A DNA stretch of 64,000 nucleotides from contig NZ_JASVWB010000002.1 of assembly GCF_030287445.1 (NCBI RefSeq), forward strand, positions 4,960,001 to 5,024,000, written 5' to 3'. Origin of the DNA: Streptomyces sp. ALI-76-A. GTDB taxonomy: Bacteria > Actinomycetota > Actinomycetes > Streptomycetales > Streptomycetaceae. The position numbers and the translations under genes were made by a program. Positions 1,816 through 14,448 of this stretch are shown here, one piece after another. The number at the start of each line of letters is the position of its first letter. Position 1 is the stretch's first letter. The notes below the pieces were generated by a model. The model was not told the DNA's origin, did not search any database, and saw nothing but the letters and a program-made list of their open reading frames with translations.

Positions 1816-3861
1816 TCAGGCAGCCGCGAGGGCGGGGACGATGCGCCACCGGCCGGTGGTGTTCGTCGCCTGCAGACGGCCTTCCTGCGCTGCTTCCTTG
1901 AGCCGCTTGGAGACCCAGGACCGGCCCAGGTTGTGGCGGTCGCACCAGTCGGTGAAGTCCTTCGGGCCCACGATCATCTGCCCGTTCTGCTCGAACTCCT
2001 CCAGCGCGGCCGCGAACAGTTCCCGGGCTTCCTCCGGGGACGGCTTGCGGCCGGTCTCCTGCCCGAAGATCGGGGCATCGTCCCCGTCTTCGGCCCCGGG
2101 CAGGTCCGCCTCCGGGTCGATACCGGCGTCCTCGGGGTCGACCAGCAGCCCGCCGTGGTTCATGTCGTCCTCCTCGGTGACGGCCCGGAGCGCCGCCGGC
2201 TGCAGCGCGTCGGTGGTGCGGCCGGTGTAGGCGGTGCCGGCAACGCCCATCGCCGCGCCGGCGGTGATCGGGTCGGCGGTGGCGCCGTTGCGCTGTACCC
2301 AGGTGGCCAGCAGCTCCATCACCGGGACGGCCCGGTGGGTGAAGCGGCGGGTGCGGCCCGGCGAGGGGTAGCGGTCCTCCGGGACACCCGGGGAGACGAC
2401 GTAGCAGTAGCCCGGCCGCCGGTTCCCCCACGCGCCGGGGTGGGCGCCCGCGGCCAGCACCTCATCCGGCAGGCAGAACCCCTCATCGCGCGGGTCGCAG
2501 CCGAGTGCGATCACGGAGGGCAGGGAGGCCCGAGTGGAGGTGGACATCTGGTCGTAGGAAGGGCGCTGAAGGGACACGATCAGCGAGATACCGGCGGACC
2601 GTGCTTCCTGGGCGATGCCAGTGAACGCGTCGTCGCCCAGCGCCCGCAGGGTGTTGGCGGCTTCCTCGAACCAGGTGACCAGGAACGGCATGCCCGGGCA
2701 GTTGCACGCCCGGCCGTCGGCCCGGCAGGTGTGCTCCGGCCTGTTCTGCGGCTGGGCTGCGGCGGGGACCCACTGCCGGTAGCCGTGGGCGCCGAGCCAG
2801 CGGGTGCGGGCGGGGATGACCTCCTGGACGGCGGCCACCATGACCTCCGTTTCCGTGCCGCCCTCCGCAGCCCAGTCCAGGCCCGGCCGCAGGGGGGCGA
2901 AGTCCTGGAACGCCTTGGGGTCGGAGAACCACACGATCACGTCCCGCCGGGACAGGATCTCGGTGAGCAGGTTCAGGGCGGTGTCGCCCTTGCCGGAGCC
3001 GGTGCCGCCGGCGATGAGCCCGTGGGTGGAGTTGCGGCCCGCGTCCGGGTCGCCGGGCAGCCACATGACCAGCGGCGCGCCATCGTCGTAGCGGCCGATG
3101 AGCAGCGGCTCGGCGATCGAGCCGCCCAGGTTCGAGGGGCCCTCCCACTCCACCGTCTCGGCCAGCATGTCCTCGGGGACGATGACCAGGTCTCCGCGCC
3201 GGTTGGAGTCGGGGTCGGGGATGTACCGCACGGCGGAGGTCGGCAGGTCCAGGGCGGAGGCGATGTTGCCGAGAGCCTTGGCCATGTCGTCGTTGGTCTG
3301 CTCACCGGGGGCGAGCGCGACCGGTGCGGTGACCCGGTTGGGCTCCACCTTCGCCGCACCAATCTGCGCCCGCGCCAGGCCCACCTTTTCCAGCAGGCCC
3401 TTGTCGGAGCTTTCGCCGGGGGCGTCGTTGTGGCGCAGGACCATCCGCACGTTCCACGACAGGGCCAGCGCCGGCCCGCCCATCAGGTACAGGTCGTCCA
3501 GCGGTCCGGCGGTGGGGCCGGCCAGGCAGGCGGCGGTCACCCACGCCGATCCGGCGGCCACGGTGATGGCGGAGTGCAGGCGCCGCTGGGAGCTGGTCGA
3601 CTTGCCCGCCCACCAGGTGACGCCGGTCAGTGCGACCGATGCGAGGGTGAGGCCGACGCCGGCCGCGGAACTGTCGGACCACCGCCAGTGCCCCAGCGCC
3701 CCCGCCAGACCCACACCGCCGGCGGCGAGCCACGGGGGCAGGTGCGGCTTGGCCCGGTTCAGCAGGTACGCCCGGACGGAGCCACCCGGTGCGGTGTTCG
3801 TGTCGGTGGTCAGGGCGAGCGGGTACGCCCGCCCGTCCTGATCGGTCCACTTGCGTGCCAT
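1816..3861 (-). CDS. traB: TraB-type FtsK/SpoIIIE DNA translocase for conjugal transfer
   Basis: 681 aa; ATG at 3861 preceded by GGGAGG. TraB proteins are hexameric, membrane-anchored ATPases that move double-stranded plasmid DNA between hyphae, the single essential transfer protein of Streptomyces elements. Residues ~43-140 hold hydrophobic segments. The ATPase core has Walker A GGTGSGKGDT (~285-294), VIVWFSDPKAFQDF, and a Walker B-like FLVTWFEEAAN (~395-405) followed by an arginine-containing SLQRPSYDQMST sensor region. The last ~55 residues (DWCDRHNLGRSWVSKRLKEA) form a winged helix like the FtsK gamma domain, which in TraB reads the clt repeats. It is preceded 13 bases upstream by the traA-like gene and belongs to the leftward transfer operon. 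Confidence 0.9.
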   Translation of the reverse strand: MARKWTDQDGRAYPLALTTDTNTAPGGSVRAYLLNRAKPHLPPWLAAGGVGLAGALGHWRWSDSSAAGVGLTLASVALTGVTWWAGKSTSSQRRLHSAITVAAGSAWVTAACLAGPTAGPLDDLYLMGGPALALSWNVRMVLRHNDAPGESSDKGLLEKVGLARAQIGAAKVEPNRVTAPVALAPGEQTNDDMAKALGNIASALDLPTSAVRYIPDPDSNRRGDLVIVPEDMLAETVEWEGPSNLGGSIAEPLLIGRYDDGAPLVMWLPGDPDAGRNSTHGLIAGGTGSGKGDTALNLLTEILSRRDVIVWFSDPKAFQDFAPLRPGLDWAAEGGTETEVMVAAVQEVIPARTRWLGAHGYRQWVPAAAQPQNRPEHTCRADGRACNCPGMPFLVTWFEEAANTLRALGDDAFTGIAQEARSAGISLIVSLQRPSYDQMSTSTRASLPSVIALGCDPRDEGFCLPDEVLAAGAHPGAWGNRRPGYCYVVSPGVPEDRYPSPGRTRRFTHRAVPVMELLATWVQRNGATADPITAGAAMGVAGTAYTGRTTDALQPAALRAVTEEDDMNHGGLLVDPEDAGIDPEADLPGAEDGDDAPIFGQETGRKPSPEEARELFAAALEEFEQNGQMIVGPKDFTDWCDRHNLGRSWVSKRLKEAAQEGRLQATNTTGRWRIVPALAAA

Positions 3862-3874
3862 GGTGATACCTCCC

Positions 3875-4414
3875 TTACTGCTGGGCCCAGTTCATGACCG
3901 GCTGCTGCGGCTTGCGGGCACGGTGGCGCACCCGGTTGATCTCCTCCTCGTACTCCTGCTGGAAGGCCGCGTAGCAGGCGGCGGCGTTCTTCGCCGCGTC
4001 CCGTAGCGCGTCCGCGGACCGCTGCATCTTGCGCGCCACCTTCGCCGCCCTCACCCGCGAGCCGAACGCCCGGCCCTCGGGGTCGGGCACCGCGGCGAGG
4101 ACGCCCTTGAGGATTTCGGCGCCCATCGCCACCTCGATGGACAGGGTGACGGCGGCGGCCCGCAGGGTGTTGCAGTAGTTGCGCACCTGCGCCGGCGAGG
4201 TGAATTCCGGGGCTGGCAGCAGGGACTCGGCGTGCGTACGGCCGCCACCGCCGCGGGCGCCGTTCTTGTTGTTGTTTACGGTCACGTTGACCGGCGGGAC
4301 GAACGAGCCGCCCAGGGCGCCGACGAAACCGCCTGCGGCGGCGCCGGCGTTGGCGAACTTGTTGCCCTTGTTGCCGGCGCCGTTCGTGCCGCCGTTACGC
4401 GTCGGGGTTGCCAT
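3875..4414 (-). CDS. TraA-like plasmid transfer protein
   Basis: 179 aa, starting MATPTRNGGTNGAGN. The first ~60 residues are Gly/Asn-rich and disordered with a short hydrophobic stretch (AAAGGFVGALGGSFV). The remainder is helical and charged, including KVARKMQRSADALRDAAKNA and ending with a basic tail (RVRHRARKPQQP). The sequence matches the small proteins annotated as plasmid transfer protein TraA directly upstream of traB in Streptomyces AICEs. These are distinct from relaxase-type TraA: no nuclease or helicase motif is present. It probably assists the TraB translocase; the mechanism is unknown. Confidence 0.65.
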   Translation of the reverse strand: MATPTRNGGTNGAGNKGNKFANAGAAAGGFVGALGGSFVPPVNVTVNNNKNGARGGGGRTHAESLLPAPEFTSPAQVRNYCNTLRAAAVTLSIEVAMGAEILKGVLAAVPDPEGRAFGSRVRAAKVARKMQRSADALRDAAKNAAACYAAFQQEYEEEINRVRHRARKPQQPVMNWAQQ

Positions 4415-4963: not shown

Positions 4964-5302
4964 TCAGGCGGCGCGCTGTTCCTCGGGGAAGGCACACGGG
5001 GTGCACATGCCGAGTGAGGGCGGGATGACGTACCCGGCATCGCACCGGCAGGCGGGGCAGGTGCGGCGGGCGGCGTTGGCCTTGGCCAGCGCCGCCCACT
5101 TCGCGGAGGTCATCGGCCGCACCGGCTTCGCGGCGTCGACGCGGTAGAGGTAGGCGACCAGCGGGCCCCGCCGCCGGCGGGGCCGCTCGATCTGCGCGGC
5201 CACGTCCTGCCCGCCGGGCCGCAGCCCGGCGGCGCGGAGCTGCCGGCGGGTGGCCAGGCCGTCAGGGGCGAGCCGCCACCGGTAGACCGGGAGGGCGCCC
5301 AT
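4964..5302 (-). CDS. RRQRL-motif zinc-binding protein of conjugative elements
   Basis: 112 aa. It contains TRRQLRAAGLRPGGQD, the RRQ(R)L signature that names this small actinomycete mobile-element family. A C-terminal zinc-binding pair follows: CPACRCDAGY and MCTPCAFPEE. The ATG at 5302 shares one base with the TAA of the upstream DUF2637 gene (TAATG), so the two are translationally coupled. The role is not known. The zinc ribbon and basic central segment (RPRRRRG) suggest nucleic-acid or protein binding within the transfer operon. Confidence 0.7.
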   Translation of the reverse strand: MGALPVYRWRLAPDGLATRRQLRAAGLRPGGQDVAAQIERPRRRRGPLVAYLYRVDAAKPVRPMTSAKWAALAKANAARRTCPACRCDAGYVIPPSLGMCTPCAFPEEQRAA

Positions 5303-6312
5303 TACCGGCTCGCGATGGCCAGCTCAGCACCACCGGCGGCGGCCAGCTCGCGGTGTTCGGCGTAGCGGGCGGACACCCACCCCACCGACCAGCCGCACAG
5401 CTCCGCGGCGGCCCGCACCGGCAAACCGGCCTCGAACGCGGCCCGCACGGTCGCCCGCGCCCGCTCCTCGGGGAACTTCTCGGCGGCCGGGCCGGCGGCC
5501 AGCAGCGCGGCGCGTTCACGCTCGGCCCGCGCCTCACGCTCGGCCCGTTCACGGCGCTCACGCTCCACGCGCTCCCGCCGCTCACGCTCGCGCCGCTCGG
5601 CATCCTCCCGCTCAGCGCGTTCACGCTCCAACCTCAGCCGTTCACGCTCGCGCTCACGGCGTTCACGCTCCGCCTGCTCGGCCCGCTCCCAAGCGGCTTC
5701 CCGCTCGGCTTCCTCGCGGCGGGCGCGTTCCTCCCGCTCGGCTTGCTCACGGGCCAGGCGGGCCTCGTGTTCACGCTGTTCACGCGCCAGCATCGCGGCG
5801 TGTTCGCGCTCCTCGCGCGCCAACCGCTCGGCCCGCTCGCGTTCCTCCCGGGCGGCTTGGCGCCGGGCCTCCCGCTCCGCCTCCTGCTGTTCCTCCAGCG
5901 CGGTGACGGCGGCGGTGATGGCCCGCCGGTAGGCAAGCCCGGTCTCTGCCGTGACGATCAGCAGCAGCGGTGCGACCGCGTGCACGGCCACGCCCACCAG
6001 GTCACCTTTCAGGGCGGAGTCGGCGACGTTCAGGGCCAGGGTCATGCCGCCGGTCATCCAGCGCAGCACCACCGGCCAGCGGCCCCCCTGCCCGCCCAGC
6101 CGGGCCAGCACCGCATCCAGGCGGACCACGATGACCACGGCCGCGTCGACCACGAGGGGGAGGATCGGCGCCGTCCAGTCCCACTCATCCGGCGTGTGCT
6201 CGGCTGCGAGCGGGGTCACGGTGAGGATGGAGTACAGCATCGCGCCCGCCACGATCAACCACGTGCCGACCGACAGCGCCCGCTCCGCTGAACGGATCTG
6301 AACACCGTTCAC
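5302..6312 (-). CDS. SpdA-like DUF2637 membrane protein with long charged coiled coil and C-terminal HTH
   Basis: 336 aa. The GTG at 6312 overlaps the upstream stop by four bases (GTGA) and is preceded by GGGGGTGG, which is why it is preferred to the ATG at 6330. Residues ~10-135 carry four hydrophobic segments typical of DUF2637 (GTWLIVAGAMLYSILTV; ILPLVVDAAVVIVV; LNVADSALKG; APLLLIVTAETGLAYRR). Residues ~140-285 are an almost pure Glu/Arg/Ala coiled coil (ERERRERERERL and similar). The last ~50 residues look like a helix-turn-helix (VRAAFEAGLPVRAAAELCGW). It could be a membrane tether with a DNA-binding tip, consistent with a role in spread or TraB-partner anchoring; that role is inference. 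Confidence 0.7.
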   Translation of the reverse strand: MNGVQIRSAERALSVGTWLIVAGAMLYSILTVTPLAAEHTPDEWDWTAPILPLVVDAAVVIVVRLDAVLARLGGQGGRWPVVLRWMTGGMTLALNVADSALKGDLVGVAVHAVAPLLLIVTAETGLAYRRAITAAVTALEEQQEAEREARRQAAREERERAERLAREEREHAAMLAREQREHEARLAREQAEREERARREEAEREAAWERAEQAERERRERERERLRLERERAEREDAERRERERRERVERERRERAEREARAERERAALLAAGPAAEKFPEERARATVRAAFEAGLPVRAAAELCGWSVGWVSARYAEHRELAAAGGAELAIASR

Positions 6313-6596
6313 GCGGCCACCCCCGTCCATGAACGCACCCGGATCGCGGCGATCAGCACCACCGGCGACGCCGGGTCGTCAAGGTCGCGGCGGTCCTCCG
6401 TCCACTGCCACGCGGCGCCCGGCAGCGGCTCGAAGCCGAGCACGCTGAGCGCCTGCGCGCGCTCGGTGAACGTCGGCACCGGCAGTGCCCGGTCAAAGCC
6501 GTACTCGGGCCACCGCTCGGCGGTGTTCAGCAGCACCACGTACAGGCGCCACCGGCCGCGGTACATCGACATCTGCGCGGTGAAGTCCCGGGCCAT
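6309..6596 (-). CDS. Small AICE protein (DUF6303-like)
   Basis: 95 aa. The ATG at 6596 overlaps the preceding stop by one base (TGATG), and its own stop overlaps the next start, so it is embedded in a tightly coupled operon. It begins MARDFTAQMSMYRGRWRLYV and continues with AAWQWTEDR and VVLIAAIRVRSW. It looks like a compact alpha/beta protein without membrane segments. I recall this as DUF6303, a family confined to actinomycete mobile elements. No function is known to me. Confidence 0.6.
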   Translation of the reverse strand: MARDFTAQMSMYRGRWRLYVVLLNTAERWPEYGFDRALPVPTFTERAQALSVLGFEPLPGAAWQWTEDRRDLDDPASPVVLIAAIRVRSWTGVAA

Positions 6597-6859
6597 CACG
6601 CCACCACCGGCGCGCCCGTGCCGCTCTGGTTGAGCAGCGCGACCCGAGCGGCCAGCGCGCGGCGGCGGGCCCGGCGGATGCGCCGGTTGTCCAGCTCGGT
6701 CGGCGTGCGGTCCAGCGTGGTGATGTGCGCGTCCAGCAGGTCGACGTCCGCCAGGATGACGGGCATCTCCCGCTCGATCGCGTCCAGCTCGGCGGCCGTC
6801 GGCTCCATGAAGTCGGCGAACGCGGTAACAGCGTCCTGAACAGTGACGATGTGCTCCAT
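6596..6859 (-). CDS. Small AICE protein (DUF6284-like), first gene of the transfer operon
   Basis: 87 aa from an ATG at 6859 with GAGAGGAA upstream. It starts MEHIVTVQDAVTAFADFMEP, continues TAAELDAIEREMPVILADVD and ends with an Arg/Ala-rich helix (RRIRRARRRALAARVALL). It is fully helical with no membrane segment. I recall the family as DUF6284. It is the first coding gene after the long leader (6860-7273) that carries the boxA-like and tRNA-like segments, so it is the first gene subject to whatever control that leader exerts. Confidence 0.6.
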   Translation of the reverse strand: MEHIVTVQDAVTAFADFMEPTAAELDAIEREMPVILADVDLLDAHITTLDRTPTELDNRRIRRARRRALAARVALLNQSGTGAPVVA

Positions 6860-6897
6860 TGGGTCGTGTTCCTCTCGAAGGATGAACGGCCCGAACC

Positions 6898-6927
6898 GCA
6901 CCCCCGCTGTTCGAGCACCGGGGGTGC
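6898..6927 (-). terminator. GC-rich hairpin in the transfer-operon leader (possible attenuator)
   Basis: Nine-base arms GCACCCCCG (6898-6906) and CGGGGGTGC (6919-6927) pair perfectly around a 12-base loop. Read on the minus strand it lies after the boxA-like and tRNA-like segments and ~40 bases before the first gene of the operon. There is no U-tract, which is usual for Streptomyces terminators. It could stop leader transcripts unless antitermination occurs; it could also be a stability hairpin. Confidence 0.4.
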
Positions 6928-6989
6928 TTGCCGTTGTTTGGAGAAAGCCGCGTCTCACACGCGGCGCGGCTACTGAGCAGCGGCCGCAG

Positions 6990-7071
6990 TGCCCCGGACC
7001 GGACTCGAACCGGTCGGGTTGCCGTACGAGGCACGCCGGTCTTCTCCGCCTTGTTTCCGACCCCTTCGGGC
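6990..7071 (-). other. tRNA-like segment (good T-arm and acceptor 3' strand, poor remainder)
   Basis: On the minus strand the segment ends with a perfect T-arm (ACCGG-TTCGAGT-CCGGT) followed by CCGGGGC and a discriminator A at 6990, the layout of a tRNA 3' end. A short stem TGCC/GGCA lies where a variable or anticodon arm would be. The 5' side (GCCCGAAGGGG...) gives only four acceptor pairs, and no normal anticodon loop can be drawn. It is therefore a degenerate tRNA, an att relic or a regulatory tRNA mimic rather than a clear functional tRNA. Confidence 0.35.
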
Positions 7072-7099
7072 AGGCGGACCACGGGTTACCGGCAGTTCC

Positions 7100-7118
7100 C
7101 TGTGTGGAGTTCTCAAGG
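7100..7118 (-). promoter_or_regulatory. boxA-like antitermination sequence in operon leader
   Basis: The minus strand reads CCTTGAGAACTCCACACAG. Streptomyces rRNA leaders, as I recall them, contain CCTTGAGAACTCAACAG, the actinobacterial NusB/NusE boxA. Identity is near complete over the 12-base core CCTTGAGAACTC and continues into the next ACA. It lies ~135 bases downstream of a TTGACA element and upstream of the tRNA-like segment and hairpin, as expected for an antitermination leader. Confidence 0.5.
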
Positions 7119-7200
7119 TGCTTGCGCTTCCTTCGAGTCCGTTTCGCGGAGCCCTCCGGGCGGCATGGGAGCAGCCCAATAGGGGCACTCCGGACTCGCT

Positions 7201-7273
7201 GTCCTAGGACTGCGGGTCGTTCGGTAAGACCATGACGCACAGTCCCAGGACTGTCAACAGTCCTGGGACTGTG
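7201..7273. promoter_or_regulatory. Operator palindromes and promoter between transfer operon and GntR regulator
   Basis: A 36-base near-perfect inverted repeat spans 7238-7273, with 17-base arms around a CA centre. Each arm contains AGTCCCAGGACT or its mirror. A third related palindrome, GTCCTAGGAC, lies at 7201-7210. On the minus strand TTGACA (7257-7252) sits inside the large palindrome, with CATGGT 17 bases further on as a possible -10. The arrangement fits autoregulated repression of the transfer operon by the GntR protein encoded at 7305, like KorSA control of pra in pSAM2. Confidence 0.65.
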
Positions 7274-7304
7274 TTTCACTGGTCGATGTCGAGAGGAGTG
7301 CTGC

Positions 7305-8099
7305 ATGGCGCCCAAGTGGCGGGAGCTTGCGGACCGGCTGGCCGAACAGATTAGGAACGGCGAGTACGCGCCCGGTGCTCAGTTGCCGCAGATCAGGGAC
7401 CTAGTGGAAGCGGGCGAAGGCTCGAAATCCACGGTCCATGCGGCCTATAAGGCGTTGGAAGCCGAAGGGCTGGTCACGTCGTCGCGCGGACACGGCACAA
7501 TCGTCCGTGAGCGGGCTCCACTCAAGCGGCTGGGCATCGCGCGATATGACAAGGCCAAGTGGCGGGACGGCGATGAGGTGGCGTTCATCGCGGACCGCGT
7601 GGCCTCCGGACGTACGTACAAGCGGAACGAACAGACCCAGACCGTCAGCCGCGTGCCGGCGTCGGCCACCGTTGCCCAGGCGCACGGTCTGCCGGAAGGT
7701 GCTGAGGTCTACGCACGTGCGCGCGTGGTCAAGGAAGGATCGCAGCCGACACACACGCTGACGAGCTATTACCGGCCCGAGCACGTGGAAGGAACGCGTA
7801 TCGTCGACCCGACGCCGGGGCCCGCCGGCCGGGGCGGTGGCTTCCGTGTCCTGTACGACGCCGGATACGAAATCGACCACATGCAGGAGACGCTGTTCGC
7901 GCGTATCCCCACGGCGGATGAGGCTCAGCTCCTCCAGCTCGCGCCGGGCGAGTGGGTGGTGGAGTTGCACCGGACGACGTACACGGCCGACGGCACCGTG
8001 GTGGAGTTCGCGATCGGCGTTCACGCAGCGACGCGCTTCGCTTGGACGTACGACTTCAAGGTCCCCGACTCAGCGAAAGCGGAGGGCGAGAGCAAGTGA
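7305..8099 (+). CDS. GntR-family (UTRA) repressor of the element, KorSA-like
   Basis: 264 aa; ATG at 7305 preceded by GAGAGGAG. Residues ~5-70 are a GntR winged helix (WRELADRLAEQIRNGEYAPG, then LPQIRDLVEAG...STVHAAYKALEAEGLV and GHGTIV). Residues ~85-255 form a UTRA ligand domain (SRVPASATVAQAHGLPEGAE; IPTADEAQLLQLAPGEWVVE). GntR proteins at this position control AICE transfer and excision genes; KorSA of pSAM2 is the model. The palindromes at 7201-7273 are the obvious operators for both directions. Its last codons overlap the next start (GTGA). Confidence 0.85.
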   Translation: MAPKWRELADRLAEQIRNGEYAPGAQLPQIRDLVEAGEGSKSTVHAAYKALEAEGLVTSSRGHGTIVRERAPLKRLGIARYDKAKWRDGDEVAFIADRVASGRTYKRNEQTQTVSRVPASATVAQAHGLPEGAEVYARARVVKEGSQPTHTLTSYYRPEHVEGTRIVDPTPGPAGRGGGFRVLYDAGYEIDHMQETLFARIPTADEAQLLQLAPGEWVVELHRTTYTADGTVVEFAIGVHAATRFAWTYDFKVPDSAKAEGESK

Positions 8100-13836: not shown

Positions 13837-13845
13837 ATCGGACAA

Positions 13846-13887
13846 CTCGTAATGCGTAGGTCTCGGGTTCGAATCCCGAAGGCGGCT
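13846..13887 (+). repeat. attachment site: duplicated 3' half of tRNA-Thr(CGT)
   Basis: The segment starts in the anticodon loop (CTCGTAA), continues TGCGTAGG, then a perfect T-arm TCGGG-TTCGAAT-CCCGA and AGGCGGC with discriminator T. There is no 5' half upstream (the sequence before 13,840 does not pair), so this is not a tRNA gene. AICEs integrate into tRNA 3' ends and leave such partial copies at one end, so this marks attL or attR of an element using tRNA-Thr(CGT). Confidence 0.8.
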
Positions 13888-13986
13888 CTGTGGAAGCCTC
13901 AGGACTCACTCGCCGTGACCTGGGGCTTTTGCTTTTACCGGATGCGGCGGCGACGCCGGGCACGGGCCGCGCGGGTGTCGGCGGTC

Positions 13987-14448
13987 TCACTTCTGCTCAG
14001 TGGGGCCCGGAATCGGGGTCGAGGGCGGAGGCACGAAGAACTCGCCCATGCGCCGCATGGCTTGAACGCCGTCGTGGCGTCCATCGAGCGCGGCCACTTC
14101 CTTCGACAGGTGCGACCGGCCCTTGACGTACCGCCGGGTCTGACTGATCTGCGTATGCCGCAGGATCTCCATGATCGTGGGCATGTCGACGCCCAACTCG
14201 TTCAGGATCGTGCCGGCGGTGTGGCGGCTCCCGTCGTGCAGGCGGCGGTCATCGATCCCGGCCTCCTTGAGCAGCTCCCTGAACTCCTCGTAGTCGGCGC
14301 GCGGGTCCAGTGGTCGGCCGTCCGGCCGCGAGAACACTACGTCGTGCTCCCGCCACAACTCCCCGACGGCTTCCCGCATCGCTTCCTGCTGGGCCTTGTG
14401 GTCGTGCAGGAACGAGGTGAAGACGGGCGGGATCGGCACGGCGTCGTA
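13987..14448 (-). pseudogene. int: Tyrosine integrase, C-terminal fragment
   Basis: About 150 codons remain. They carry the second half of a phage-type integrase: REHDVVFSRPDGRPLDPR, LHDGSRHTAGTILNELGV (HxxR, the His and second Arg of the active site), HTQISQTRRYVKGRSHLSKE with the catalytic Tyr. The N-terminal SAM-like and arm-binding domains and the first catalytic Arg are missing. Upstream the frame runs directly into an IS110-type transposase fragment at about 14,443-14,450. The stop lies ~100 bases from the tRNA-Thr fragment, the normal int-att spacing, so this integrase probably used that site. It cannot be active alone. Confidence 0.85.

Follow-up and report, generated by a model that had tools for sequence, protein, structure and literature searches.

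The segment between positions 6898 and 7273 on the minus strand is the leader of an AICE transfer operon that runs from DUF6284 to TraA/TraB, and it joins a boxA almost identical to that of the rRNA (rrn) leaders of its host to a tRNA-like minihelix lying further downstream. The two modules are separable, are common to AICEs and phages, and are not always found together. Their anatomy, conservation, orientation and covariation, described below, are direct observations. We consider it fairly likely that such modular leaders combine rrn-type boxA antitermination of mobile-element operons with tRNA-like processing sites, for which host RNase P would be the likeliest enzyme. Slightly short of an even call, in our judgement, is the further proposal that the minihelix represents an undescribed two-helix tRNA-mimic RNA family of Streptomyces phages and integrative plasmids, serving as RNase P punctuation and coupled to an rrn antitermination site at the operon head.

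The leader and its element

The AICE measures about 19.6 kb and is bounded by 45-bp repeats of the 3′ half of tRNA-Thr(CGU), which bears out its assignment to this class of element in the initial annotation. The tRNA-Thr(CGU) gene itself sits outside the window (the whole stretch of 64,000 nt that was analysed), and an integrase match is found directly inside the left att copy. A partial second integrase match at 14122-14370 of the window (minus strand), just past the right att repeat, is perhaps the remnant of a tandem element. NusB is encoded in this genome. The leader is flanked by a divergent GntR/UTRA regulator gene on the plus strand and by the DUF6284 gene on the minus strand, and the features of the locus are as follows (window coordinates unless given otherwise).

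7305..8099, plus strand: divergent GntR/UTRA transcriptional regulator (Pfam UTRA 5e-22, GntR 1.7e-15)
7238..7273, no strand assigned: 36-bp palindrome with TTGACA at its centre (from the sequence; comparable layout in plasmid L006)
7198..7213, no strand assigned: second operator-like half-site, GCAGTCCTAGGACAGC (from the sequence and comparison with plasmid L006)
7134..7158, minus strand: hairpin region 5′ of boxA in a boxB-like position, its sequence differing among relatives (alignment A3 with the rrn leader)
7125..7134, minus strand: GAAGGAAGCG motif, common to the rrn leader (alignment)
7103..7118, minus strand: boxA, CCTTGAGAACTCCACA (pattern and matrix searches)
7035..7093, minus strand: structured domain GCCGGTAACCC...GACCGGC, one of several differing post-boxA domains (sequences of relatives)
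6990..7033, minus strand: tRNA-like minihelix (detector, alignments and model R2)
6966..6987, minus strand: hairpin GCGGCCGCTGCTCAGTAGCCGC (from the sequence)
6947..6965, minus strand: hairpin GCCGCGTGTGAGACGCGGC (from the sequence)
6898..6927, minus strand: GC-rich hairpin with outer stem 6886-6934, without a U-run (equivalent in the leaders of relatives)
6596..6859, minus strand: DUF6284, first gene of the operon, start codon at 6859 (Pfam PF19801, 2.9e-41)
5302..6330, minus strand: operon gene of 342 aa, with no family above cut-off in the two libraries searched
4964..5302, minus strand: RRQRL motif zinc-binding protein (NCBIfam NF041638, 153.1 bits)
3875..4414, minus strand: TraA (NCBIfam NF041213, 261.1 bits)
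1816..3861, minus strand: TraB, plasmid transfer protein (NCBIfam NF041214, 1004.9 bits)
13845..13889, no strand assigned: right att repeat, 45 bp, 3′ half of tRNA-Thr(CGU) (repeat search)
contig C2 4954292-4954336, outside the window: left att repeat, a repeat of the 3′ half of tRNA-Thr(CGU)

All the parts that the initial annotation had listed (palindrome, boxA, T-arm, GC hairpin and transfer operon) were found in place. Read 5′ to 3′, the leader consists of the palindrome, the half-site, the hairpin region, GAAGGAAGCG, boxA, the structured domain, the minihelix, two hairpins and the GC hairpin, and the predicted fold of its 341 nt is better than that of 100 out of 100 shuffles (z −3.1). The domain at 7035-7093 is common to the loci L030, L031, L032, L043 and L095, and in part to L002 and to the plasmid SCP2 (L001). 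In SCP2, a classical plasmid (2500-2650 of L001), this shared domain follows a boxA that itself looks degenerate, GTTGATAACCGCA.

Judging by its sequence, the palindrome at 7238-7273 is probably the operator of the divergent GntR regulator. It had been read as an operator carrying a TTGACA promoter, and TTGACA does fall within its 36 bp, but a scan of 6590-7330 found no sigma-70-like promoter pair. The GC-rich hairpin described ahead of the operon is likewise present, but the same scan found no U-run terminator on the reading (minus) strand, the sole terminator-like call in the scanned region being on the plus strand. All 34 leaders tested (those with boxA 213-303 nt upstream) have a counterpart of this hairpin, alike in shape, some 75 nt ahead of DUF6284, with a mean energy of −35.0 kcal/mol compared to −21.6 for shuffled sequences, and its stem varies in sequence from leader to leader with the pairing kept. 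It is a candidate terminator that may or may not act as one.

An rRNA-type boxA before DUF6284

A search of the 9.7-Mb genome with CCTTGAGAACTNNACA, allowing up to one mismatch, gave eight matches, all of them exact, compared to none for the reversed control: six lie in rrn leaders, some 190 nt ahead of 16S, one is in the leader in the window and one lies at C2:3860110. The earlier description of the boxA as nearly identical to that of Streptomyces rRNA is thereby confirmed, the core in the window being that of the six host rrn leaders; CCTTGAGAACTC is identical in all of them and is followed in the window by C where rrn has A. The site at C2:3860110 (L010) is a perfect boxA, CCTTGAGAACTGAACA, belonging to neither an rrn leader nor the window. 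Within the 64-kb window the leader boxA is the only match at up to two mismatches (chance mean 0.11; 10 of 100 shuffles of the window had at least one such match), and it lies 259 nt upstream of DUF6284.

The same signal recurs before DUF6284 in other genomes. The family is present in 94 of 199 Streptomyces genomes, from which we took 130 loci among the matches listed rather than all places. A boxA pattern with up to three mismatches was found within 700 bp upstream in 60 of the 130 loci, against 2 for the reversed and 1 for the antisense control. When two near-duplicates were left out and a leave-one-out matrix was applied up to 1200 bp upstream, 71 of 128 loci had a boxA scoring at least 14 (0 antisense, 1 reversed, 0 complement); lowering the required score to 4 gave 76 of these loci, against 2 antisense, 16 reversed and 2 complement. 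In a second collection, from which 10 of 80 loci were removed as duplicates, boxA scored at least 14 in 33 of the 70 further loci and in none of the antisense or reversed controls; eleven further Streptomyces loci, four of them with a boxA at this score, stand outside every count. Conservation before DUF6284-like genes, set beforehand as a check on the proposed function, thus passed in both collections. A fixed spacing did not hold: boxA lies 213 to 1127 nt upstream of DUF6284 among the 128 loci, in part because in some loci another gene comes first. No boxA was detectable within 1200 nt in 57 of the 128 loci, and the Streptomyces matrix found none in 10 non-Streptomyces loci belonging to the distant family f18 (one of these loci being below the family cut-off).

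A form of boxA that is absent from the rrn leaders of this genome, CTTGAGAACTGAACAG, was found 23 times, in 20 out of 101 Streptomyces genomes, mostly counted without context, and not at all in the reversed control. Several leaders (L016, L064, L072, L079, L081, L107 and L124) carry a degenerate boxA-like ACAACTCNACAGCGTGATCC, one of them with AAAACTC, and in another locus (L297) a full boxA precedes a downstream stretch resembling that of the degenerate-boxA leaders.

Likeness to the rrn leader extends beyond boxA. Among 56 non-redundant boxA sites (4 of 60 having been removed), conservation upstream consists of GAAGGAAGCG and then GTT right before boxA, and downstream of CAGnG. Class I leaders, of which 36 out of 42 rows were aligned with one rrn leader in alignment A3, follow it through GCCCGGAG, a variable hairpin region, AAGGAAGCG, a spacer and boxA, with boxB and boxA in the order known from E. 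coli rrn (PMC10250234), and one phage contig (L282) is nearly identical to the rrn leader across this stretch. The hairpin and AAGGAAGCG that mark an rrn-type site before boxA are therefore present in A3; the window has the motif, and its upstream 60 nt taken alone show a modest likeness to rrn, with a score of 2.5 (background mean −6.8, sd 4.1, maximum 5.5, n=615). Single-sequence folds of the hairpin before boxA are inconsistent, and the pairing is accordingly judged from an alignment inspected visually. In other leaders differing stretches stand 5′ of the same boxA and several unrelated domains 3′ of it, which gives the leaders the look of mosaics. An exact search of viral contigs with CTTGAGAACTSAACAG gave 117 stretches; non-redundant stretches with complete flanks number 80, and in 61 of these a G stands two bases past CTTGAGAACTSAACAG; the low-GC ones among them resemble chance matches.

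A tRNA-like minihelix in AICEs and phages

The element downstream of boxA had been described as a tRNA-like 3′ half with a perfect T-arm. The T-arm is as described (ACCGG-TTCGAGT-CCGGT, with TTCGAGT as the loop), but the structure is more than a 3′ half, since an acceptor helix, GCCTCG/CGGGGC with one G-U, closes a full minihelix at 6990-7033 and can stack on the 6-bp T-stem GACCGG/CCGGTC to give 12 bp; A-C follows the acceptor. The linker TACGGCAACCC, which is about 10-16 nt long among copies, takes the place of the D and anticodon arms. The window copy has the coaxial acceptor/T-arm helix of about 12 bp with a T-loop that is expected of a tRNA-type RNase P substrate, phage copies having 11 pairs; no cloverleaf with an anticodon arm was found, and ARAGORN called no tRNA in the 64-kb window. 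Folded alone, the minihelix reaches −22.8 kcal/mol (z −1.7), with 14 of 200 shuffles as good. Rfam gave no match in the window at the gathering threshold, only miRNA models on the palindrome when 521 nt were searched at E ≤1, and in four other loci at E ≤0.1 only mascRNA-menRNA, for one phage copy (E 0.072, below the family cut-off).

A strict detector applied to 2.04 Mb of loci returned 35 rows, some places appearing twice, and none in the reversed and complement controls. Alignment A5 takes 22 of these rows, same-place copies being left out together with L005, L136, L145, L231, L246 and L270, whose linkers are longer and look different. All 264 of its 264 cells are paired and 9 of the 12 pairs have changed on both sides, as high a value occurring in 0 of 500 shuffles. 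The members of A5, like those of the phage alignment A7 below, were mostly found by requiring pairing, so the weight of A5 is carried by the both-side changes and the controls and not by the complete pairing. The two bases after the acceptor, which were not a criterion of the A5 detector, are A/G and then C in 22 of 22 sequences. Exceptions to this tail occur among matches of a search with a model, R1 (L424, L429 and L436), and a tally over parsed copies is blurred by 7-bp acceptor choices, so the claim rests on A5. Of 46 parsed copies, 45 carry GG in their linker; four copies (L228, L425, L430 and L431) did not parse as fully paired. Under strict filters R1 has 31 matches in 25 of 199 genomes, and it matches the window by construction because it was built with the window's own sequence. 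Two minihelices stand 0.5 kb apart in one chromosome (G168:C29 1488404-1488975), and in another genome four of phage type lie within 5 kb (G057:C1 2735515-2740397), perhaps in a prophage.

The order of boxA followed by the tRNA-like element, noted originally for this one leader, is also seen in phages and in AICEs besides this one. In a set of 198 distinct boxA sites outside rrn leaders, 17 are followed by a minihelix at a distance of up to 350 nt (3 of these minihelices lacking the GG linker) and none is preceded by one. Conversely, 30 minihelix loci were read, and boxA is upstream in 16, downstream or antisense in none, and not found within 600 nt in the other 14; the boxA matrix was partly trained on loci recounted in these two tallies. 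Neither boxA nor the minihelix is obligatory.

Some Streptomyces phages show both the pairing of the modules and the multiplication of one of them. In Camvirus and similar phages (Joe, Endor1, Verse, phiCAM, Pavo and Endor2, chosen for the likeness of their leaders to that of L250), boxA is followed about 106-109 nt on by a minihelix and then by the opening gene of the right-arm operon, and these phages and the Likavirus Chucky repeat the minihelix along that operon. Positions were tallied in the six annotated phages Joe, Verse, phiCAM, Chucky, Pavo and Endor1, opposite-strand open reading frames of Joe being omitted. Copies lie outside same-strand genes in 48 of 50 cases, one of the 48 being inside Joe gp78 on the other strand, which GeneMark did not call. 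They stand 6-18 nt past the preceding stop codon in 39 of 47 cases and 30-49 nt ahead of the next start in 43 of 50 (median 41 nt), and 45 of 55 gaps longer than 60 nt contain one. The annotation of Arquatrovirinae right-arm arrays (L448, which is Joe KX815338.1 33000-48941, and L556-L560) has no RNA feature there.

Alignment A7 consists of 43 rows, all of 43-nt copies from phages. Its detector required GG, the first G and the A/G-C tail, so that A7 is no evidence for these three. The model R2 was built from A7 only and is independent of the window, and a search fitted to its structure yielded alignment A8, in which 36 distinct rows have 396 of 396 cells paired and 78 cells changed on both sides, compared to 20.4 when shuffled. 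A joint alignment of phage and AICE minihelices was left out because the forms with a 5-bp acceptor misaligned. A further pair, between linker nt 14 and T-loop nt 29, is a candidate for the D-loop/T-loop contact of a tRNA-type RNase P substrate and played no part in selecting copies; it is Watson-Crick in 179 of 188 distinct copies, in all four kinds, where the maximum of 2000 shuffles is 128. The rest are 3 G-U and 6 non-pairing combinations, the latter all of AICE type and including the sequence in the window. The original suggestion of a processing site or a mimic for the tRNA-like part gains support from the covariation among copies and from the repetition between phage genes; cleavage itself we infer.

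R2 finds 97 matches in 12 of 12 phage records, 6-10 per full record and on the same strand among the matches listed, the records having been chosen for holding copies, many of which had trained the model. In the 64-kb window it has a single match, at 6988-7032 (E 1.5e-4 in a search space of 111 kb). Over 199 whole genomes at E 0.001 the window copy was missed, its own genome having 0 matches, and only one other genome was hit, with 4 matches; ordinary tRNAs are not reported by R2. ARAGORN made a few calls on phage contigs, three of which overlap minihelices (L205, L250 and L452). In phiC31 (41.0 of 41.5 kb) the search for a minihelix was negative, its best E being 0.63, and none of the boxA candidates was convincing, the highest score being 10.5 on the minus strand; hence not every Streptomyces phage has these modules.

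Environmental viral contigs (L457, L461, L478, L505, L510 and L452) hold 4-12 minihelix copies on one strand, some of these contigs at about 60% GC; most environmental contigs with arrays were picked by a minihelix pattern match. The environmental arrays suggest that the range of the minihelix extends beyond the named Streptomyces phages. BLAST of three environmental array stretches also gave matches to Mycobacterium phages somewhere along the stretch.

A different role would leave boxA as proposed, with the minihelix uncut and acting on mRNA stability or translation: its stable fold would serve to bind a tRNA-binding protein or to shield the ribosome-binding site that follows. The steady distance to phage start codons fits such a role, as does the presence of other hairpins near the minihelix both in phages and in the window. 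However, most copies also keep close to the preceding stop codon, as punctuation would, and the coaxial length of acceptor and T-arm, the GG linker and the A/G-C tail of A5 resemble what RNase P reads in pre-tRNA. We regard an uncut minihelix as unlikely.

A possible route from repressor to processed mRNA

Reading the leader as an antitermination switch, as the initial annotation did, is partly supported by these results, Nus binding, terminator resistance and switching being proposals. In the route that we propose, repressor control, Nus binding, antitermination and RNase P cleavage would act in turn. The GntR repressor would let go of the promoter and the leader would be transcribed, the first 350 or so nt of the transcript carrying the rrn-like site of hairpin, AAGGAAGCG and boxA. 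NusB/S10 would bind boxA and, with NusA/NusG, would turn RNA polymerase resistant to Rho and to pausing, as in the rrn system, so that the enzyme could cross the long untranslated GC-rich leader and the tra operon of about 5 kb as far as traB. Downstream of boxA the transcript would fold into the minihelix, with acceptor stem, T-arm and D-loop-like GG linker and then A-C. Its most likely role would be that of a site for host RNase P, perhaps with RNase Z, severing the leader from the coding mRNA, and the same kind of minihelix may provide ‘tRNA punctuation’ between the operon genes of related phages.

The rrn-like boxA leader might instead be kept for titration of NusB/S10 or for translational control and not for processive antitermination, a use that has a precedent in E. 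coli, where boxA represses translation of suhB (PMC5725501). The survey in that paper covered boxA within 50 bp of start codons, whereas in our leaders boxA lies at least 213 nt upstream of DUF6284 (259 in the window) and stands at operon heads in AICEs and phages alike, and we find this use quite improbable. Although AICEs integrate into tRNA genes, as this one did, we hold it extremely improbable that integration left the tRNA-like sequence behind as an att site, or that this sequence is the relic of a tRNA: it has no anticodon arm and drew no ARAGORN call in the window, the att reading is rejected since the repeat at the att sites is another sequence, the tRNA-Thr 3′ half, and the relic reading because the minihelix covaries across elements and phages and forms arrays of many copies per phage genome.

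If antitermination at boxA followed by cleavage at the minihelix is correct, mobile-element operons would run in an ‘rRNA mode’, with terminator-proof transcription and then tRNA-type processing. Streptomyces conjugative elements and phages would be borrowing the antitermination signal of host rRNA operons, and the escape from Rho of long tra operons whose leaders are untranslated would have its explanation. The minihelices that recur between phage genes would amount to tRNA punctuation in a bacterial form. A literature search (mostly of titles, with subscription journals mostly outside its coverage) found no description of the minihelix, and none of an rrn-type boxA in the transfer operons or phage operons of actinobacteria.

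Outside rrn operons, boxA is also known for CRISPR arrays. It has been described for suhB and a ParE-like toxin gene as well (PMC5725501). For E. coli rrn, one account gives the order boxB-boxA-boxC and has boxA as necessary and sufficient for factor recruitment (PMC10250234). Our leaders resemble this site, rrnTAC, in the boxA core, in AAGGAAGCG, in the upstream hairpin region and in an order like that of host rrn leaders; unlike it, they stand before protein-coding tra and phage operons, and variable RNA domains and a tRNA-like element follow in place of 16S rRNA. Two phage systems are different: at lambda nut sites the phage protein N acts at boxB and the order of hairpin and boxA is another, and the put RNA of phage HK022 is not known to have an rrn-like boxA plus tRNA-like element. 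They are similar in that nut sites place boxA and a hairpin at phage operon heads (PMC10250234) and in that the factor in the put system is an RNA and not a protein (PMC8955417). In the conjugation operons of pLS20, processive antitermination is known as conAn and, as we propose here, acts at the start of the operon (PMC8955417). However, conAn is a protein–RNA pair (ConAn1 and conAn2) of Bacillus plasmids, and the text considered mentions neither boxA nor NusB, whereas the signal in our leaders resembles the host rrn site. For the minihelix, one phage copy has the weak Rfam match to mascRNA/menRNA (E 0.072, below cut-off). In mascRNA/menRNA and in mitochondrial tRNA punctuation, a tRNA-like unit marks the RNase P/Z cut in a longer transcript. 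Unlike these, the unit described here, at which cleavage would occur by the route proposed, belongs to bacterial mobile elements, is a two-helix minihelix without an anticodon arm, and is repeated between phage genes.
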